Part shown: positions 10,164 to 15,812 of the stretch, piece by piece | Layout of the letters: each line of letters starts with the position of its first letter | How positions within the stretch are numbered: position 1 is the first letter of the stretch | Source of the DNA: Candidatus Desantisbacteria bacterium CG1_02_49_89 | GTDB taxonomy: Bacteria > Desantisbacteria > UBA1551 | Reading direction: 5' to 3' | Assembly (NCBI GenBank): GCA_001871075.1 | Contig: MNUP01000078.1 | Coordinates: forward strand, 1 to 18,312 | DNA length: 18,312 nucleotides | Notes under the pieces: model-generated | The model's database searches: none | What the model was told of the DNA's origin: nothing | Seen by the model: the letters and a program-made list of their open reading frames with translations, nothing else | Program-made: the position numbers and the translations under genes

Positions 10164-10184
10164 CCATTTTTCATTTTACATTTT
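10164..10184 (+). repeat. tandem heptamer NCATTTT x3
   Basis: Three abutting 7-nt units on the plus strand, CCATTTT, TCATTTT and ACATTTT, differing only in the first base. They lie shortly upstream of rplT on its coding side. The format matches the heptamers at 11166-11193 and 11460-11487 although the core word is different. Confidence 0.7.
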
Positions 10185-10228
10185 GTTGAGCTGGTAGCGA
10201 TTGAACTGGTAATGAAATCCCCGCGTCT

Positions 10229-10285
10229 AACCCATAAAGGGTTGTGGGGGAATCCCCCCTGTTTGCCCATTCAGGGCAAGGGGGG
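10229..10285 (-). promoter_or_regulatory. structured leader between rpmI and rplT with competing hairpins
   Basis: The plus strand holds TTGCCC/GGGCAA (10263-10268 with 10274-10279, 5-nt loop) extended by CCCCCC/GGGGGG (10254-10259 with 10280-10285) across a 3-nt bulge. The C-tract can instead pair with GGGGG at 10246-10250 over a 3-nt loop, so the two foldings exclude each other. A third hairpin, AACCC/GGGTT (10229-10233 with 10239-10243), follows in the direction of transcription. No T-tract ends it, so control of rplT translation or mRNA processing is more plausible than termination. A mobile or palindromic repeat is an alternative. Confidence 0.5.
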
Positions 10286-10304
10286 ACATTCAGCATAATA
10301 GTTT

Positions 10305-10502
10305 TTACATATTGGGTATCAGCCTTTTGATGTCCTGCTGGTTTGATTTATCCACGACGCAGCTTCCCCTCATACCCCTCTTTCTCTTCGATGTTTTCTT
10401 GGTGAGCAGGTGCCTGCGGTAAGCCATGTATCTTATGACTTTGCCTTTCCCGGAAATCTTGAACCTCTTTGCCGCGCTTTTCTTTGTTTTTATTTTTGGC
10501 AT
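10305..10502 (-). CDS. rpmI: 50S ribosomal protein L35
   Basis: Small basic protein of the large ribosomal subunit, 65 residues as expected. The whole family pattern is present: MPKIKTKKSAAKRFKISGKG, then RRHLLTKKTSKRKRGMRG, ending DIKRLIPNM. GGAG lies 7 nt upstream of the ATG. It is the middle gene of the infC-rpmI-rplT translation operon, with structured spacers on both sides (127 nt after infC, 159 nt before rplT). Confidence 0.98.
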   Translation of the reverse strand: MPKIKTKKSAAKRFKISGKGKVIRYMAYRRHLLTKKTSKRKRGMRGSCVVDKSNQQDIKRLIPNM

Positions 10503-10522
10503 TATATCTCCAATTTTTCATT

Positions 10523-10555
10523 GCTCACTCTTCGCTTGCTGTTCGCTCACTGTTC
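10523..10555 (+). repeat. tandem 11-mer x3
   Basis: Three abutting 11-nt units on the plus strand: GCTCACTCTTC, GCTTGCTGTTC and GCTCACTGTTC. Unit 3 differs from unit 1 at one position, and the middle unit differs from unit 3 at two. They lie just upstream of the rpmI ribosome binding site, in the infC-rpmI spacer. Confidence 0.6.
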
Positions 10556-10569
10556 AATAATACAAAAAT

Positions 10570-10629
10570 ACCGGCATCGGGAGGGATCCTCCCTGGTTGC
10601 TGGATCATCGGACCGGGTCTTGCCGCGGT
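10570..10629 (-). promoter_or_regulatory. branched structure in infC-rpmI spacer, possible L20 operator
   Basis: ACCGGCA at 10570-10576 can pair with TGCCGCGGT at 10621-10629 with a 2-nt bulge, closing a domain that holds a perfect GGGAGG/CCTCCC hairpin (10579-10584 with 10588-10593, 3-nt loop). The region starts right at the infC stop codon. In E. coli the L20 repressor site lies at the infC-rpmI junction, so an autogenous operator is the natural hypothesis. I have not matched it to a known L20-site consensus. Confidence 0.35.
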
Positions 10630-11145
10630 CTATTTCTTTACAGGAGCGATAATCGCAATTTTATACATACCTTCCTGCCTGGGTGCCTGCTCGAACACGA
10701 AAAGTCCGCTGAGTTCCGTATTCAGCCTTTCCAGCAGTTTGTTGCCCCGCTCCTTGTATGCGATCTCCCTGCCGCGGAACACGATGCTGAGTTTTACCTT
10801 GTCGCCTTCCTCGAGAAATCTTTTGATGTTCGCAAGTTTTATCATGAAATCATGCTCGCCTATCTGCGGCCTGACGCGCACCTCTTTTATATGCGTTACT
10901 TTCTGCTTCTTTTTTTGGAGCCTTTCTTTCTTTTCCAGTTCATACTTGAACTTGCCAAGTTCCTCAATCTTGCATACAGGAGGAATGGCAGACTCAGACA
11001 CCATTATCAGGTCCAGACCTTTCTCGCGGGCTATCCTGAGAGCGTCAGACGCAGACAGGACCCCGAGTTGCTGCCCGGTTTCATCTATAACCCTCATTTC
11101 CTTCGCCCGTATCTCCTCGTTTATCCTTACTCTTCTGGTGAAAAT
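10630..11145 (-). CDS. infC: translation initiation factor IF-3, AUU start
   Basis: IF3 binds the 30S subunit, checks start-codon pairing and keeps subunits apart. The first ATG in frame (11095-11097) would give 155 residues and lose part of the conserved N-domain. Reading upstream in the same frame restores FTRRVRINEEIRAKE, the standard IF3 N-terminus, and the only well-placed initiator is an ATT at 11143-11145, about 6 nt after a near-perfect Shine-Dalgarno (AAAGGGGGTGAT, 11149-11160). The product is then 171 residues, normal length. The linker helix (KFKYELEKKERLQKKKQ) and the C-domain (KEVRVRPQIGEHDFMIKL, KVKLSIVFRGREIAYKERG) are intact. AUU initiation of infC is the known basis of IF3 autoregulation in E. 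coli. rpmI and rplT follow. Confidence 0.93.
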   Translation of the reverse strand: MFTRRVRINEEIRAKEMRVIDETGQQLGVLSASDALRIAREKGLDLIMVSESAIPPVCKIEELGKFKYELEKKERLQKKKQKVTHIKEVRVRPQIGEHDFMIKLANIKRFLEEGDKVKLSIVFRGREIAYKERGNKLLERLNTELSGLFVFEQAPRQEGMYKIAIIAPVKK

Positions 11146-11160
11146 ATTATCACCCCCTTT
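11143..11160 (-). promoter_or_regulatory. infC ribosome binding site and AUU start codon
   Basis: AAAGGGGGTGAT (minus strand, 11160-11149) matches the anti-Shine-Dalgarno complement at nearly every base and is followed after AAT by ATT. A strong Shine-Dalgarno with a non-canonical start is how E. coli infC is set up: initiation at AUU is disfavoured when IF3 is plentiful. This site decides the infC start. Confidence 0.75.
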
Positions 11161-11165
11161 AATAA

Positions 11166-11193
11166 TCTATTTTCTATTTTCTATTCTCTATTG
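11166..11193 (+). repeat. tandem heptamer TCTATTN x4
   Basis: Four abutting 7-nt units on the plus strand (TCTATTT, TCTATTT, TCTATTC, TCTATTG), varying only at the last base. The opposite orientation of the word (AAAATAG, AAAATAGA) appears around 11250-11273, so the array has an opposing arm. It lies directly upstream of the infC ribosome binding site. Confidence 0.75.
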
Positions 11194-11353
11194 TTCAATT
11201 GCTCTGATTTTTCGCTTCGCGAAAAAATACCGAAACACCATAAAATACTGAAAATAGAACAATGGAAAATAGACCGCAATCTCGCAATTTCATTTCTCTA
11301 TTCTCTATTGTTCAATTGCTCTATTGCTCTGATTTTTCGCTTCGCGAAAAATC
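11180..11353. repeat. pair of near-identical 47/55-nt direct repeats, each ending in a hairpin
   Basis: Copy A spans 11180-11226 and copy B 11297-11351. They are identical except that B has an extra TATTGCTC inserted. Each ends in a perfect hairpin: TTTTTCGC/GCGAAAAA with a 3-nt loop at 11208-11226, and GATTTTTCGC/GCGAAAAATC at 11331-11353. On the minus strand copy B's hairpin begins at the very end of the tRNA and could serve as its terminator or processing signal. The 70 nt between the copies carries reverse-complement versions of the same short words. Confidence 0.8.
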
Positions 11354-11426
11354 TGGGCCCACCCGGATTTGAACCAGGGACCTACTGATTATGAGTCAGC
11401 CGCTCTCACCGCTGAGCTATGGGCCC
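11354..11426 (-). tRNA. tRNA with CAU anticodon (Ile2 or elongator Met)
   Basis: A full 73-nt cloverleaf on the minus strand: acceptor GGGCCCA/TGGGCCC (7 bp), D-stem GCTC/GAGC, anticodon stem GCTGA/TCAGT around loop CTCATAA, T-arm CCTGG/CCGGG with loop TTCAAAT, discriminator A at 11354. CCA is not encoded (GAT follows). The anticodon CAU is read by elongator Met, initiator Met or lysidine-modified Ile2; the paired first base excludes a typical initiator. The short D-loop and GGGCCC acceptor recall E. coli ileX-type Ile2 tRNAs, but sequence alone does not settle it. It lies between rpoD and infC. Confidence 0.92.
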
Positions 11427-11432
11427 GCTTTT

Positions 11433-11487
11433 AGTTAAAAGTTGAAATCAGATTTTACTTTTAGCTTTGAGCTTTCAGCTTTTAGCT
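11433..11487 (+). repeat. opposed heptamer arrays AGTTNAA x2 and TTNAGCT x4
   Basis: On the plus strand AGTTAAA and AGTTGAA (11433-11446) face four abutting units TTTAGCT, TTGAGCT, TTCAGCT, TTTAGCT (11460-11487), in which only the third base varies. The right array is nearly the reverse complement of the left, so transcripts could fold into a hairpin. It occupies the gap between the rpoD stop (3 nt away) and the tRNA and may act as the rpoD 3' end, though it lacks a GC-rich stem. Confidence 0.75.
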
Positions 11488-11490
11488 AAA

Positions 11491-13287
11491 CTACGGGGCA
11501 AGGTAATCTTTTAAAATCCTGCTTCTTGCCGGATGCTTCAGTTTCCTCAGGGCTTTGGATTCTATCTGCCTTATCCTTTCCCGCGTTACGTTGAATATGC
11601 GCCCGACCTCTTCAAGCGTATGCCTGTACCCATCCTTGCCAAGGCCGAAACGCAGTTTCAAGATTTCTTTCTCTTTAAAGCTCAAGGTATCCAGAACGGA
11701 AAGCAGTTTTTCGCGGCACATGGACGAGATAACCATGTTGGACGGCGCTTCCACGTTCTTGTTCTCAATAAAATCAGCAAGGTGGGCGTCATCCCTTTCC
11801 CTGATGGGAGTCTCGAGCGAGATCGGCTCCTGGACGATCCTCAGCACCCTCCTGACCTTGCGCAGCGGCAGGTGAACCTCTTTAGAAATTTCCTCGGGTG
11901 AAGGCTTCCTTCTCAGGCTCTGGACCAGGTTCCTCGAAGCGTGTATTATCCGGTTTATCTGTTCTATCATGTGCACGGGCACCCTTATGGTCCTGGACTG
12001 GTCCGCAAGAGCGCGCGTTATTGTCTGCCTGATCCACCATGTTGCATAGGTGCTGAACCTTCCCTTCTTGTAACTGTATCTGTCAACTGCCTTAATAAGA
12101 CCGATATTCCCTTCCTGTATAAGATCCAGGAACGAAAGACCGCGGTTCATGTAATTCTTGGCGATGCTGACGACAAGCCTGAGGTTGGCGGTGATCAACC
12201 TGTCCCTGCAGTCATTTATCGTCTTTTCTTCTTTTGAAATAAGCCTGCTGGTCTTTTTAAGCTCCTCTGTCTTCATCTTGGCTTTTCTTTCCATGCCGGA
12301 AATTTTACGTTCCAGCGATCTGATCCTGGAAACCAGCAATTTTTTTCTCTTCTTTATTTCGGGCTTCCTGCTCTCTTTCGGCCCAAAGGCGTTCAGCCTG
12401 CTCATAAGGCTGTGCCTTTCGGAATTCATTTTATCGATTTTCCCGCAGAGGTCAGTAAAAATCCCCGAGACCCTGGTAATAAACTCGCTGGATATGTTCG
12501 CACCGAGTATCCAGGAACTTATCTTCGGCATATCTTTCTTTTTCCTGTTCATTTCCCTTGCCACGGCTGACATATCTTCTTTTACTTTTTTTTCATCTTC
12601 AAGAAATGCGCGGCCGTCGTTCTGTATCAGTTCCGATATTTCCAATTCATCATTATTAATGCTGTTAAAAAAAATCTTCAGTTCTACAAAACCGACCTCG
12701 CTAAGCAGCGTAAGCTCCTTGATTTTCCTTTTGCTCTCCTCCGTGTCTTTTGCTATTCCTTCTTCTTCTTCGGGATTCAACAGGGATGTCTGGCCCATCC
12801 TGCCCAGATACATCTTGATCGCGTCCAGCGGTTCGGTGAATTCCTCTTTTTGCGCGGCTTCCTTTGCCGGCTCGGTTGTTTCTCCGGGGATCTCGGGCTC
12901 CGCGGGCTCCGCGGCCTGGGCATCCTTGGCCGCATCGACAATTTTAATGTTCTTATCTTTCAACACAACAAAGATGTTGTCTATATCCTCCGGATCAACT
13001 ATGTCGGAGGGAAGTATTTCGTTTATTTCCTCGTAAGACAACTGGCCTTTCTGCTTGCCCTTGGCAAGCAGCTGTTTCAAGCCGGACGCTATAAGGTTTT
13101 TGCCCTGCGCGTGAGTCGCCCTGCTGCTTCCTTTTTCGATCCTGGCTTTTATTGCTTTAGGCTTTGGCCGGGGCGCCAACTTTTTCTTCTTCATGATCCC
13201 GTGTTTTTGCCTGTGTGTGGTTTTTCTGTCAGGTTTCCGGCTTACGCTCTTTTTCACGTGTTTCATTCTTTTTTTTCCGATAGGCAT
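11491..13287 (-). CDS. rpoD: RNA polymerase primary sigma factor with basic N-terminal extension
   Basis: The housekeeping sigma-70 factor, 598 residues. The first 60 or so residues are very rich in Lys and Arg and precede a recognisable region 1.1 ([28 protein letters not shown] at about 65-92, [20 protein letters not shown]). An acidic Pro/Ala/Glu linker and region 1.2 ([16 protein letters not shown]) follow, then a long helical non-conserved region, region 2 ([36 protein letters not shown] and [19 protein letters not shown]), region 3 ([17 protein letters not shown]) and region 4.2 ([21 protein letters not shown]). The ATG abuts the dnaG stop; GGGGAGA in the dnaG 3' end lies about 10 nt upstream, which supports the long start over Met-8 or Met-32. 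The gene sits in a dnaG-rpoD operon. Confidence 0.96.
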
Positions 13288-15099
13288 TTAATTAAATCTC
13301 CCCGAATTAACGGCACGGTGGTCCTTTTCCAGTTCCTGGTACTGCAGAAGAAGCACCTGCAGTTTTTCCGCGCTCTTTTCCTTTTCTGCCTGCCTTATTT
13401 CTTTTTCTATCGTCTTTTTCCTTTTAATGAACTTTCCTTCCCTGATCTTCCTCACGCAGTCTCCCAGCATCCTTTCCCTGTCAGACTGCTTCCCGGACCC
13501 CTCATCCTCAAATATACCCAGCTCGTCCTGCAGGGAGAGCATTGAGGCTATTCCCGCAAGCTTCTCGTCACCAAGACAATCCATCAGCACCTTGAAATCC
13601 ACACGCCCGCTTTCTTCGAATATCCTGAATATATTATCCACTATCTTCTTGTATCCGGGATTCTCGAAATCCTCCAGCTCCAGATTTTTCCTGATCACTG
13701 GAATAAACGAGCTGTCGCCCAGCATCAGCCTGACTATCATTGACTCTGCCTTTGCCATATCGCTTAATCCGGTTGTTTCCGTAACCGATTTTTTTGTAAA
13801 ATCGCGCTCCGAGAATGCCTGCAGGATCCGGTCGTATTCAGCGTAAACATATTTTTCCAGAAGTTCGAGTTCTTCAGCCAGCTTCTTGAGATAAATGCTC
13901 TTTTTCACCTCGTTCTTCAGCTTTCCTATTACCGGAAGCAGTTCCGCGACTATCTTCTGCTTGCCTTCATTGGTATTCCTGTCGAGTTTCGAAAAAACCC
14001 TTCTGAAATGATAATCCATAAGCGGCAGGGCACCTTCAGCGAGTTTTGCGAATGCGTCCTTCCCGTATTCCCTGATATAACTGTCAGGGTCGCCCGAGGG
14101 AAGCACGAGTATCCTTGGCTCAACATCCCTTTCGACCAGAAGGTCCAGGCCTCTCATGGTAGCCGCTTCCCCGGCAGTATCGGCATCATAGCATATTATC
14201 GGCCTTTCAGCATATCTCCTTAAGAGAGAGATCTGGCTGTCGGTCAGGGCGGTACCCAGGGATGCAACCGCATTTTCTACGCCGTTCTGATAGAGCATGA
14301 GAAAATCCATATAGCCCTCGACTATGATCGCCTCGCCTGTCCTGCGGATCCCCTCTTTGGTAACATTCATCCCGTAAAGTACCCTGCCCTTGCTGAATAC
14401 CTGTGTTTCGGCTGTGTTAAGGTATTTCGGCTCTCCTTCCTCCAGGATCCTTCCGCCAAATCCCAGAACCTTCTGCCTGAGGTCGAATATAGGGAACATC
14501 AGGCGCCTGCGGAAATAGTCCTGCGGATGGCCCTGGTATTCTCCCGATGCAGCCAGGCCCGCCTCCCTCAACTGGCTTATGTGCGTTCCGCTCCCGGTGA
14601 GCTCTTTGACCAGATAACCGCCTCCCGGCGCATATCCTATTTTGAATTTTTCAATTATTTCTTTTGCAAGACCCCGCTTATCAAGGTAGCTCCTGACTTT
14701 CCTGTTCTCTTCCCGCAAAAGGCATGTATGGTAGATCTCTGCCGCTTTTTCGTTTATCTCGAAAAGCGTTTCCTTCTTTTTGGCGCTTTCGGTCTCATAT
14801 TCAGAAGTGACAATGGCAACATTCAGTTTTTGGCCAAGCGATCTGACGGCTTCCGGGAACGGCATGTTCTCCATTTTCATTACAAGATTTATTACATTCC
14901 CCCCTGCGCCGCACCCGAAACAGTGGAAGATCTGCTTGTCAGGGCTTATGACGAATGATGGTGTTTTTTCCTGATGGAAAGGACAAAGCGCTTTAAAATT
15001 CCTGCCTGCCTTTGTCAGCTTGAAATATCCCGAGGCTACCTCGACAATATCAGCCCCTTCTCTTATCTTCTCAATAACGCTTTCAGGTATCTGGGCCAT
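13288..15099 (-). CDS. dnaG: DNA primase
   Basis: Makes RNA primers for lagging-strand synthesis. It has 603 residues, normal for bacterial DnaG. The N-terminal CHC2 zinc-binding domain has C39, H42, C60 and C63 (LCPFHQEKTPSF, FHCFGCGAGG). The RNA polymerase core contains KIGYAPGG, FPIFDLRQKVLGFGGRIL and PKYLNTAETQVFSKG, and the TOPRIM domain has EGYMDFLMLYQNGV and the metal-binding CYDADTAGEAAT. The C-terminal helicase-interaction part (about 440-603) is helical and poorly conserved. The ATG lies 5 nt after the tmk stop; no Shine-Dalgarno is seen, because the palindromic word repeat of the tmk end fills that place. rpoD follows with no gap (TAAATG). Confidence 0.97.
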   Translation of the reverse strand: MAQIPESVIEKIREGADIVEVASGYFKLTKAGRNFKALCPFHQEKTPSFVISPDKQIFHCFGCGAGGNVINLVMKMENMPFPEAVRSLGQKLNVAIVTSEYETESAKKKETLFEINEKAAEIYHTCLLREENRKVRSYLDKRGLAKEIIEKFKIGYAPGGGYLVKELTGSGTHISQLREAGLAASGEYQGHPQDYFRRRLMFPIFDLRQKVLGFGGRILEEGEPKYLNTAETQVFSKGRVLYGMNVTKEGIRRTGEAIIVEGYMDFLMLYQNGVENAVASLGTALTDSQISLLRRYAERPIICYDADTAGEAATMRGLDLLVERDVEPRILVLPSGDPDSYIREYGKDAFAKLAEGALPLMDYHFRRVFSKLDRNTNEGKQKIVAELLPVIGKLKNEVKKSIYLKKLAEELELLEKYVYAEYDRILQAFSERDFTKKSVTETTGLSDMAKAESMIVRLMLGDSSFIPVIRKNLELEDFENPGYKKIVDNIFRIFEESGRVDFKVLMDCLGDEKLAGIASMLSLQDELGIFEDEGSGKQSDRERMLGDCVRKIREGKFIKRKKTIEKEIRQAEKEKSAEKLQVLLLQYQELEKDHRAVNSGRFN

Positions 15100-15104
15100 A
15101 ACTT

Positions 15105-15812
15105 TTAGTTTGCTGGTTTGCTGGTTTTCCGGTTCCCTGGTTTATAGCAAGCTAACCGGCTAACTGGCCAACCAGCGGATTTTTTCAGAAGCTTATCGAT
15201 ATGTTTTTTTATCATTGCGAACGTGCGTTCAGCGGGAGAAACAACCTTGACGATCTTTATCCTGCCGGGTTCCCTGCGCGCAAGGCTCAGGTAGCCGTTC
15301 CTGACCTTTCTGTGGAAAGAGATCCTCTCCTCTTCTATCCTGTCCCTGATATTTTTGCTTTTTGCCCTCAGCAGCCCCGATTTTATATCGGGGCCAAGAT
15401 CAAGGCATATCGTAAGGTCAGGCCTGATGCCTGCGGTTACGCTGCGGTTAAGTACGTCTATCAAGCTTGCGCTGATCCCCCTGCCAAAACCCTGGTAGGC
15501 AACAGTGGCATCCGTAAACCTGTCGGTTACCACAGCCCTGCCTTTTTTATTGAGCGCGGGGATCACTACCTGCCTTATATGCTGCGCCCTGTCCGCCATA
15601 TAAAGAAAAAGCTCGGTATATGCATCGATCTCTTTATTTGAAGGATCAAGTAGTATTTTTCGTATGCTTCTGCCGATCCTTGTACCGCCGGGCTCAAAGG
15701 TCAGAAGAACGCTGTATCCGCGGGCCTGAAGGTAATCCCTGATCAATCCTGTTTGCGTTGTTTTGCCCGTTCCTTCCCCGCCCTCTATGCTAATAAATAT
15801 TCCACGCTTCAT
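15105..15812 (-). CDS. tmk: thymidylate kinase with repeat-derived C-terminal tail
   Basis: Phosphorylates dTMP to dTDP in dTTP synthesis. From the ATG at 15810-15812 it begins MKRGIFISIEGGEGTGKTTQ, with the P-loop GGEGTGKTT at residues 11-19. The dTMP-binding FEPGGT and the DR motif in VVTDRFTDATVAYQGFGRG follow, then a lid-like basic region with an arginine-rich loop (RDRIEEERISFHRKVRNGY). An ATG four codons further upstream is an alternative start. The protein has about 235 residues against the usual 200-215. The last 24 (SAGWPVSRLACYKPGN and on to SKPAN) are encoded by an octamer repeat array (15111-15176) and do not look like part of the kinase fold. Upstream is rfbB, downstream dnaG. 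Confidence 0.95.
   Translation of the reverse strand: MKRGIFISIEGGEGTGKTTQTGLIRDYLQARGYSVLLTFEPGGTRIGRSIRKILLDPSNKEIDAYTELFLYMADRAQHIRQVVIPALNKKGRAVVTDRFTDATVAYQGFGRGISASLIDVLNRSVTAGIRPDLTICLDLGPDIKSGLLRAKSKNIRDRIEEERISFHRKVRNGYLSLARREPGRIKIVKVVSPAERTFAMIKKHIDKLLKKSAGWPVSRLACYKPGNRKTSKPAN
15111..15176 (+). repeat. opposed octamer arrays inside the 3' end of tmk
   Basis: On the plus strand four abutting octamers of form NNCNGGTT (TGCTGGTT, TGCTGGTT, TTCCGGTT, CCCTGGTT; 15111-15142) are followed by an 8-nt spacer (TATAGCAA) and three octamers GCTAACCG, GCTAACTG, GCCAACCA plus GC (15151-15176). The second array is an imperfect reverse complement of the first, so the whole can fold into a hairpin of about 30 nt per arm. 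It reads in frame as the tmk C-terminal tail. Confidence 0.75.

Follow-up and report, generated by a model that had tools for sequence, protein, structure and literature searches.

Short tandemly repeated repetitive (STRR) sequences of cyanobacteria are tandem arrays of heptamers, abundant in Nostoc and Calothrix, that have been described as repeats only. In Xanthomonas, GGGAATC heptamers come mostly as four units with one variable position, form 70–75 inverted pairs per genome and have been read as G-quadruplexes (PMC4692102). The class 1–3 sites of Geobacter metallireducens have octamers in four tandem units or heptamers in five and occur as opposite-strand pairs at variable distance, and this genome also carries four tandem GGGACCG heptamers at 49 places, some of them within genes (PMC2700814). 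Marine Beggiatoaceae have TAACTGA heptamer arrays in their spacers, with a patchy presence in Cyanobacteria and Bacteroidetes for which horizontal spread has been suspected (PMC4679880). Finally, the intervening sequences (IVSs) of the 23S rRNA in Leptospira and Coxiella contain an S23 gene with an inverted repeat at either end, the two pairing into a stem (28 bp in Coxiella), and have been called selfish elements whose mobility is suspected but unproven (PMC4990558). Here we deal with arrays of short tandem words in the spacers of a stretch of 18,312 nucleotides (contig MNUP01000078.1, hereafter the window) of Candidatus Desantisbacteria bacterium CG1_02_49_89, to which a preliminary description had drawn attention. 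In our opinion it is quite probable that these arrays belong to small mobile elements, of which they form the terminal inverted arms and which are represented in the window by gene-less copies. Statements about the whole genome (G000, 2.48 Mb in 150 contigs) come from sampled stretches or from searches of it.

A long foreign element with a GxxExxY gene between its arms prompted a test of the genes located between arms. The genome has 11 matches to PF05635 (the S23/23S-rRNA-IVP four-helix bundle), corresponding to about 10 genes, between or beside word arrays; most of them are found between opposed arrays and nearly each has a different word. The arm words are AGTGGCC/ACTGACC, CGTCGTA, GGAGTCTA, GTCATGG, AGCTCAT, AACGTGT and AATTGCA, together with CGTGTCAA (on one side, at a contig end), GGTTAAA (where the gene is broken) and TCTATTG at L236 (doubtful). 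Words that match several of these genes (CGTGTCAA, CGTCGTA, ATTGCAA and AACGTGT) recur as non-coding copies. When other phyla were added to this genome, an array with an inverted partner bracketed 25 of 37 PF05635 genes versus 8 of 342 other open reading frames (ORFs), the latter called mechanically (Fisher p about 2e-23), and at least three of these eight are PF05635 genes themselves. The family is present in 70/192 sampled genomes and in 0/14 control genomes. On cyanobacterial plasmids, all 10 S23 genes examined lay between arrays of heptamers or octamers facing each other (the named hosts being Nostoc, Calothrix, Anabaena, Trichormus, Geminocystis, Pseudanabaena, Picosynechococcus and Stanieria). 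Over 35 bracketed genes the arms were made of heptamers in 30 cases, octamers in four and a nonamer in one, with a median arm of 32–33 bp.

Broken or truncated S23 genes persist within GGTTAAA arms (L239/L240, which is C125 7111–7343 of this genome, and L237), and it is possible that they are intermediates between gene-bearing and gene-less copies. S23 elements were also seen within CRISPR-Cas operons of cyanobacterial plasmids (L270, L273 and L278), twice in the order cas6-S23-cas4 with different words and once as cas10-S23-cmr3.

There is a sister class of elements carrying a GxxExxY (PDDEXK_3 nuclease-like) gene between ACCRCAGA-type arms. Inverted repeats, mostly of this type, bracket 25 of 34 GxxExxY genes versus 2 of 74 controls, and five such genes of the Desantisbacteria genome lie between repeats of the CACAGAGG, CACGAATT, CACGGATGCA, CACAGAT and ATTACAGTGATT types. 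No transposase was found between the arms in any element examined, only S23 or GxxExxY proteins.

Copies of the arms are numerous. The first 15 contigs, which are an unbiased sample, contained 100 arrays per 167 kb versus 0.8 in shuffles, and spirochaete control loci had 0–1 arrays each. Clustering of 180 arrays (~273 kb) gave the families CGTGTCAA (15 members), AATTATG (14), AGTTTACAG (13), ACGTACG (12), TCTATTG and others, and more than 25 recurrent word families coexist in this one genome without a common motif. The preliminary description had rightly stressed the format shared by the loci, i.e., short words of fixed length in about four units that often face an inverted copy. It had also taken the words to be unrelated between loci, which is wrong because they recur as dispersed families, for example the 55 copies of CACRGAGNCACRGAGNCACRGAG (CACRGAG family) in this genome. 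The latter word was found in 14/289 other genomes of different families as well (a reversed-pattern control gave mostly zero), and among the 17 species of a foreign genus it was present in only 4, with 113, 47, 14 and 6 copies; the distribution is one of patchy, lineage-specific amplification. In a genome of this genus carrying the word, the arms are exactly 23 bp long (three octamers minus one base) and the interiors are variable, with size classes near 67 and 181–188 bp.

Many copies consist of an arm, a core and the inverted arm. A core with paired GCAAGGAATT...AATTCCTTG is common to the AATTATG and CGTGTCAA elements, and RNA folding gave z -4.8 to -5.2 for three complete elements from other parts of the genome. 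Some arrays are located inside ORFs. By eye, arrays of the AGCTGAA and ACGTGTA types seem to lie inside genes just after ATGAAAAA.., i.e., in signal-peptide coding sequence (L126 at 2966, 4922 and 9279, L131 at 2484, L118 at 16022 and L119 at 987), with different words in the same kind of place. The AGTTTACA arrays are regularly faced or trailed by AATCCGTG and TTTCGTGC arrays (L115 5639–5711, L118 544–610 and L120 1622–1705), suggesting that an arm can combine words of the S23 type with words of the GxxExxY type. Onion-like palindromes were observed in a foreign genome (G202, L185–L224), where CACAGAG arms are flanked by GAACTGC..TTGC / GCAA..GCAGTTC and enclose more hairpins, as if elements inserted at the center of older palindromes.

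At the level of whole genomes, arrays per 100 kb averaged 8.3 in ten PF05635-rich genomes versus 1.2 in ten without the family (Mann-Whitney p = 0.004). In the nearest relative (G001), which lacks PF05635 genes, the density is 2.0 arrays per 100 kb versus 48 in our genome. This relative keeps the gene order of the window (tmk, dnaG, rpoD, tRNA-Met, infC, rpmI, rplT); its spacers are short and contain no array of the window: the 11433–11487 element is missing from the orthologous spacer, and the 15151–15173 arm from the dnaG-tmk spacer. Thus a comparison of orthologous spacers, as the preliminary description had proposed, found the arrays absent altogether rather than diverged.

On cyanobacterial plasmids, some sites were found both with and without an element. 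At site A the empty version reads AAAAAGTAATTAACAAATAAATATG (L280 and L281) and the occupied one AAAAAGTAAT/AAATCAGAATTCAG...S23...GAGTTCTTCTTT/GTAATTAACAAATAAATATG (L275 and L283), with a left flank 99% identical between the two and GTAAT as a 5-bp repeat. Two heptamers separate L275 from L283, and L282 is a deletion remnant. Site B is empty as TTCTAG.TTATGC (L285 and L287) and occupied with the repeat TTCTA (L284, L286 and L288). In L288 the S23 gene is itself split by an element of 182 bp that has no gene, uses the same TCAGAAT words and lacks a target repeat. Relatives without S23 were found for site C (an integrase operon) and site E (cas6-cas4), and at site D there are three states, S23 between AGGGAAC arms (L274), the same word without S23 (L291) and neither (L292). 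Presence/absence polymorphism was therefore seen at sites A, B and C, in addition to the insertion into the L288 S23 gene. The elements insert as whole units, and the number of words in an arm changes locally, also by whole units.

Words and proteins vary together. With the gene-strand polarity of the arms set from hidden Markov model matches, protein identity over the 35 bracketed genes was correlated with word similarity in sense orientation (Mantel r 0.165, p 0.001), compared to p 0.23 for the antisense control. Word similarity was 13 for proteins at least 60% identical and 4.6 otherwise. An AGCTTTT-type word, for instance, brackets the S23 genes of L246, L270 and L271, from Pseudanabaena and Calothrix plasmids and genome G055, and the window element at 11433–11487 is of this type. 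The 5' arm was purine-rich in sense in 29 of 35 cases (p = 1e-4). Only two relatives of the S23 family with a solved structure were found, 2gsc (XCC0516) and 2rld, both with five chains per entry, which suggests that each subunit of a pentamer might correspond to one word. As to the claim that variation is concentrated at one position of the word, a modest effect was found over the arrays of this genome (2.20 variable columns per array versus 2.50 expected, p = 4e-4), but in the arms of S23 elements the concentration did not reach significance. Transitions make up about two thirds of the changes in these arms, and the changes are mirrored between the two, a pattern that speaks against adenine-specific mutagenesis. 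Mutagenesis of the kind performed by diversity-generating retroelements was accordingly rejected as the source of the variable position, the changes being mirrored between arms and not A-specific in sense, and the genome having a single reverse transcriptase match. Avd of these retroelements is a distant relative of S23.

The arrays of the window are listed in Table 1. Their coordinates and sequences in the preliminary description were right when checked against the window sequence and with Tandem Repeats Finder. Counting arrays with a score of at least 36 and a period of 7–11, the window has 5. Shuffling had been suggested at the outset as a refuting test; in 30 local dinucleotide shuffles the arrays averaged 0.1 and never exceeded 1, and pure chance was rejected as their source. 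Opposing arms had been announced at three loci and are real at 11250–11330, 11433–11487 and 15108–15173. The fold of 15100–15182 as RNA, which includes the last pair, beats its shuffles (z -3.7, 0/200), and the other folds of the window were unremarkable against theirs (z -1.4 and -0.9). A search of the window against Rfam gave the tRNA only. Most of the five arrays originally noted are thus supported, but those at 10164–10184 and 10523–10555 lack support as elements, with no detected partner, no fold and a weak or different periodicity. The TCTATTG/CAATAGA family (window 11166–11353, L127 13966–18944, L128, L129 and L130) adjoins the 3' side of 16 of the 19 tRNAs sampled; several of the stretches sampled had been picked by their match to this tRNA spacer. 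A terminator-like palindrome ATTTTTCGC..GCGAAAAAT sits between the tRNA and the element.

Table 1. Word arrays and associated features of the window. Intervals in brackets are those reported by Tandem Repeats Finder (TRF).
Positions	Feature	Words or sequence	TRF score	Remarks
10164–10184	Three 7-nt units	CATTTTN	33 (10165–10184)	No fold, no partner found; unsupported as element
10523–10555	Three 11-mers		45 (10523–10555)	Fold z -0.5; different period, no partner; unsupported as element
11166–11229	Solo right half, second TCTATTG-family copy	TCTATTT x2, TCTATTC, CTCTATTG ... + palindrome	47 (11166–11192)	Near-duplicate of 11292–11353
11250–11273	Left arm, tRNA-linked TCTATTG/CAATAGA element	GAAAATAGAACAATGGAAAATAGA		Inverse of right arm; this tRNA spacer alone has 46 matches in its own genome
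11274–11291	Inner segment	CCGCAATCTCGCAATTTC		Recurs in family copies on L127, L128, L129, L130
11292–11330	Right arm, TCTATTG/CAATAGA element	TCTATTC/TCTATTG/TTCAATTG/CTCTATTG	50 (11292–11330)	Family matches
11331–11353	Palindrome between TCTATTG/CAATAGA element and tRNA	GATTTTTCGCTTCGCGAAAAATC		Probable tRNA terminator; similar palindrome beside other tRNA-linked copies
11354–11426	tRNA-Met (CAT), minus strand			TCTATTG/CAATAGA element directly 3'; ARAGORN and Rfam
11433–11487	Small inverted element between rpoD stop and tRNA-Met	AGTTAAA AGTTGAAA ... TTTTAGCTTTGAGCTTTCAGCTTTTAGCT	49 (11453–11487)
15108–15143	Left arm, octamers	GTTTGCTG x4.5	44 (15108–15143)	Three partial matches elsewhere in genome
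15151–15173	Right arm	GCTAACCG GCTAACTG GCCAACC	32 (15151–15173)	Preceded by 7-base loop

Inverted word arms thus surround S23 and GxxExxY genes in many phyla, gene-less copies exist, and similar words accompany similar proteins. In this reading a complete element consists of an arm of ~30–35 bp with four to five tandem words of 7 or 8 nt, an S23 gene coding for a four-helix-bundle protein of roughly 120 residues (S23/23S-rRNA-IVP family, PF05635), and the same arm inverted. Most copies in a genome are gene-less, as arm-core-arm hairpins or single arms similar to miniature inverted-repeat transposable elements (MITEs), and many dispersed families have a “master” copy with S23 or GxxExxY between its arms. 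We infer that the arms could be what the element's own protein recognizes, the S23 pentamer binding the tandem words, one per subunit, in RNA or DNA. Because S23 carries no known catalytic domain, we place the mobilizing enzyme elsewhere; S23 might bring the element to this enzyme, supplied in trans, on which movement would then depend.

Several observations weigh against such a view. About one third of the PF05635 genes in the set have no clear inverted arms. The assembly offers no clear gene-bearing copy of the AATTATG and AGTTTACA families, and for TCTATTG only the doubtful partner at L236. For the window, the connection to the elements is made by format, by family copies and by the absence from the nearest relative, rather than by a gene-bearing copy of identical word. 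The 5-bp repeats of sites A and B (GTAAT and TTCTA) have no counterpart at site C or at the insertion into the S23 gene of L288, so that these sites do not establish a fixed rule of target duplication. Shared descent of a linked element would produce the same covariation of word and protein; the correlation is consistent with recognition and does not prove binding.

Among other explanations, the one that survives best, which we still regard as unlikely, is that the arrays are fixed regulatory sites, bound by nucleoid proteins or global regulators or acting as RNA terminators or attenuators, the S23 genes being mere neighbors or the regulators themselves. Arms do lie in spacers, often near start or stop codons, and in some cases fold strongly as RNA, IHF/HU binding has been proposed for the same format in Geobacter (PMC2700814), and the position of the TCTATTG type after 16/19 tRNA genes, in stretches partly chosen by that match, goes in the same direction. 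Regulatory sites would not be expected, however, to come in more than 25 words per genome without a shared motif, to be polymorphic for insertion (once into a gene), to lie inside ORFs, or to be completely absent from orthologous spacers.

Less probable still is an ordinary system of repetitive extragenic palindromic (REP) sequences and their REP-associated tyrosine transposases (RAYTs), or one of MITEs derived from insertion sequences, in which the arms would be the cognate repeats of the Y1 transposases of the genome. There are ten Y1_Tnp matches, and MITE-like non-coding copies are numerous, but conventional REP hairpins (GTAACTCAGG..CCTGA and CTCAACTTGTTGAG) lie on the flanks of several Y1_Tnp genes, no Y1_Tnp gene was seen between word arrays in the way of the S23 genes, and no examined element has a transposase between its arms. 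RAYT/REP was discarded as the mobilizer, the Y1 transposase loci carrying conventional REPs of their own. Such ordinary hairpins (GTAACTCAGGGC.., CTCAACTTGTTGAG) flank Y1 transposases at L153, L154, L155 and L114 14660–14720, and REPs were also found nested inside word elements.

The least credible proposal, close to the local process building palindromes imagined in the preliminary description, is that polymerase slippage and template switching generate and correct short tandem palindromes in place without dispersal: it would account for the whole-unit difference between L275 and L283 and for the transitions (two thirds of the variants) mirrored in both arms, but is contradicted as a full account by words shared between dozens of loci and between unrelated genomes, by whole arm-gene-arm units present or absent at one site, and by the two specific gene families between the arms. 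The preliminary description was correct in discarding plain slippage, the arms belonging to dispersed families that insert as whole units, and a local process may act on them after insertion; unit number does vary locally.

Returning to small mobile elements with word-array arms, a wider and more tentative generalization, to which we give somewhat less than even chances, is that S23 pentamers are diversified word readers (7–8 nt per subunit) mobilizing transposase-less word-array elements across bacteria, that STRRs, the repeats of Xanthomonas, Geobacter and Beggiatoa and the rRNA IVSs form one superfamily, and that GxxExxY elements are a parallel second class. Two old puzzles are joined here, the unexplained heptamer repeats of bacteria and the unclear role of the S23/IVP protein in rRNA intervening sequences, and the association, the insertion polymorphism and the word-protein pairing open both of them to laboratory tests. 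Should the S23 pentamer indeed read its word, small proteins and the short words they recognize would form a large natural set of pairs, and mobile elements of a widespread class would now be annotated as “four helix bundle protein,” “S23 ribosomal protein,” “GxxExxY protein” or nothing. No description linking such repeats to S23 or GxxExxY genes was found in the literature searched, subscription papers and preprints being outside the search.

The rRNA IVSs have the same protein family (PF05635) and terminal inverted repeats around the gene, but the elements examined here are located in spacers, tRNA surroundings, operons and plasmids and not within the 23S rRNA, from which the IVSs are excised by RNase III, and have in addition tandem arms of 7–8 nt words, a word per element, many gene-less copies and insertion polymorphism. 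STRRs, which the preliminary description had aptly chosen for comparison, are likewise heptamer arrays with many copies in spacers, and arrays of this kind bracketed 10/10 S23 genes of cyanobacterial plasmids; as described there, they have one core word genome-wide, whereas more than 25 word families share the genome studied here. One word per genome is also the case in Xanthomonas, and 2gsc (XCC0516), one of the solved S23-family structures, is named after a gene of Xanthomonas campestris. The Geobacter sites were interpreted as IHF/HU or regulatory RNA sites and no gene between arms was reported (PMC2700814), and the Beggiatoaceae arrays, read as translational control sites, form almost no inverted pairs (PMC4679880). 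With MITEs and REP/RAYT systems the elements share inverted ends and gene-less derivatives that vastly outnumber the gene-bearing copies, but they have no transposase and their ends are word arrays.

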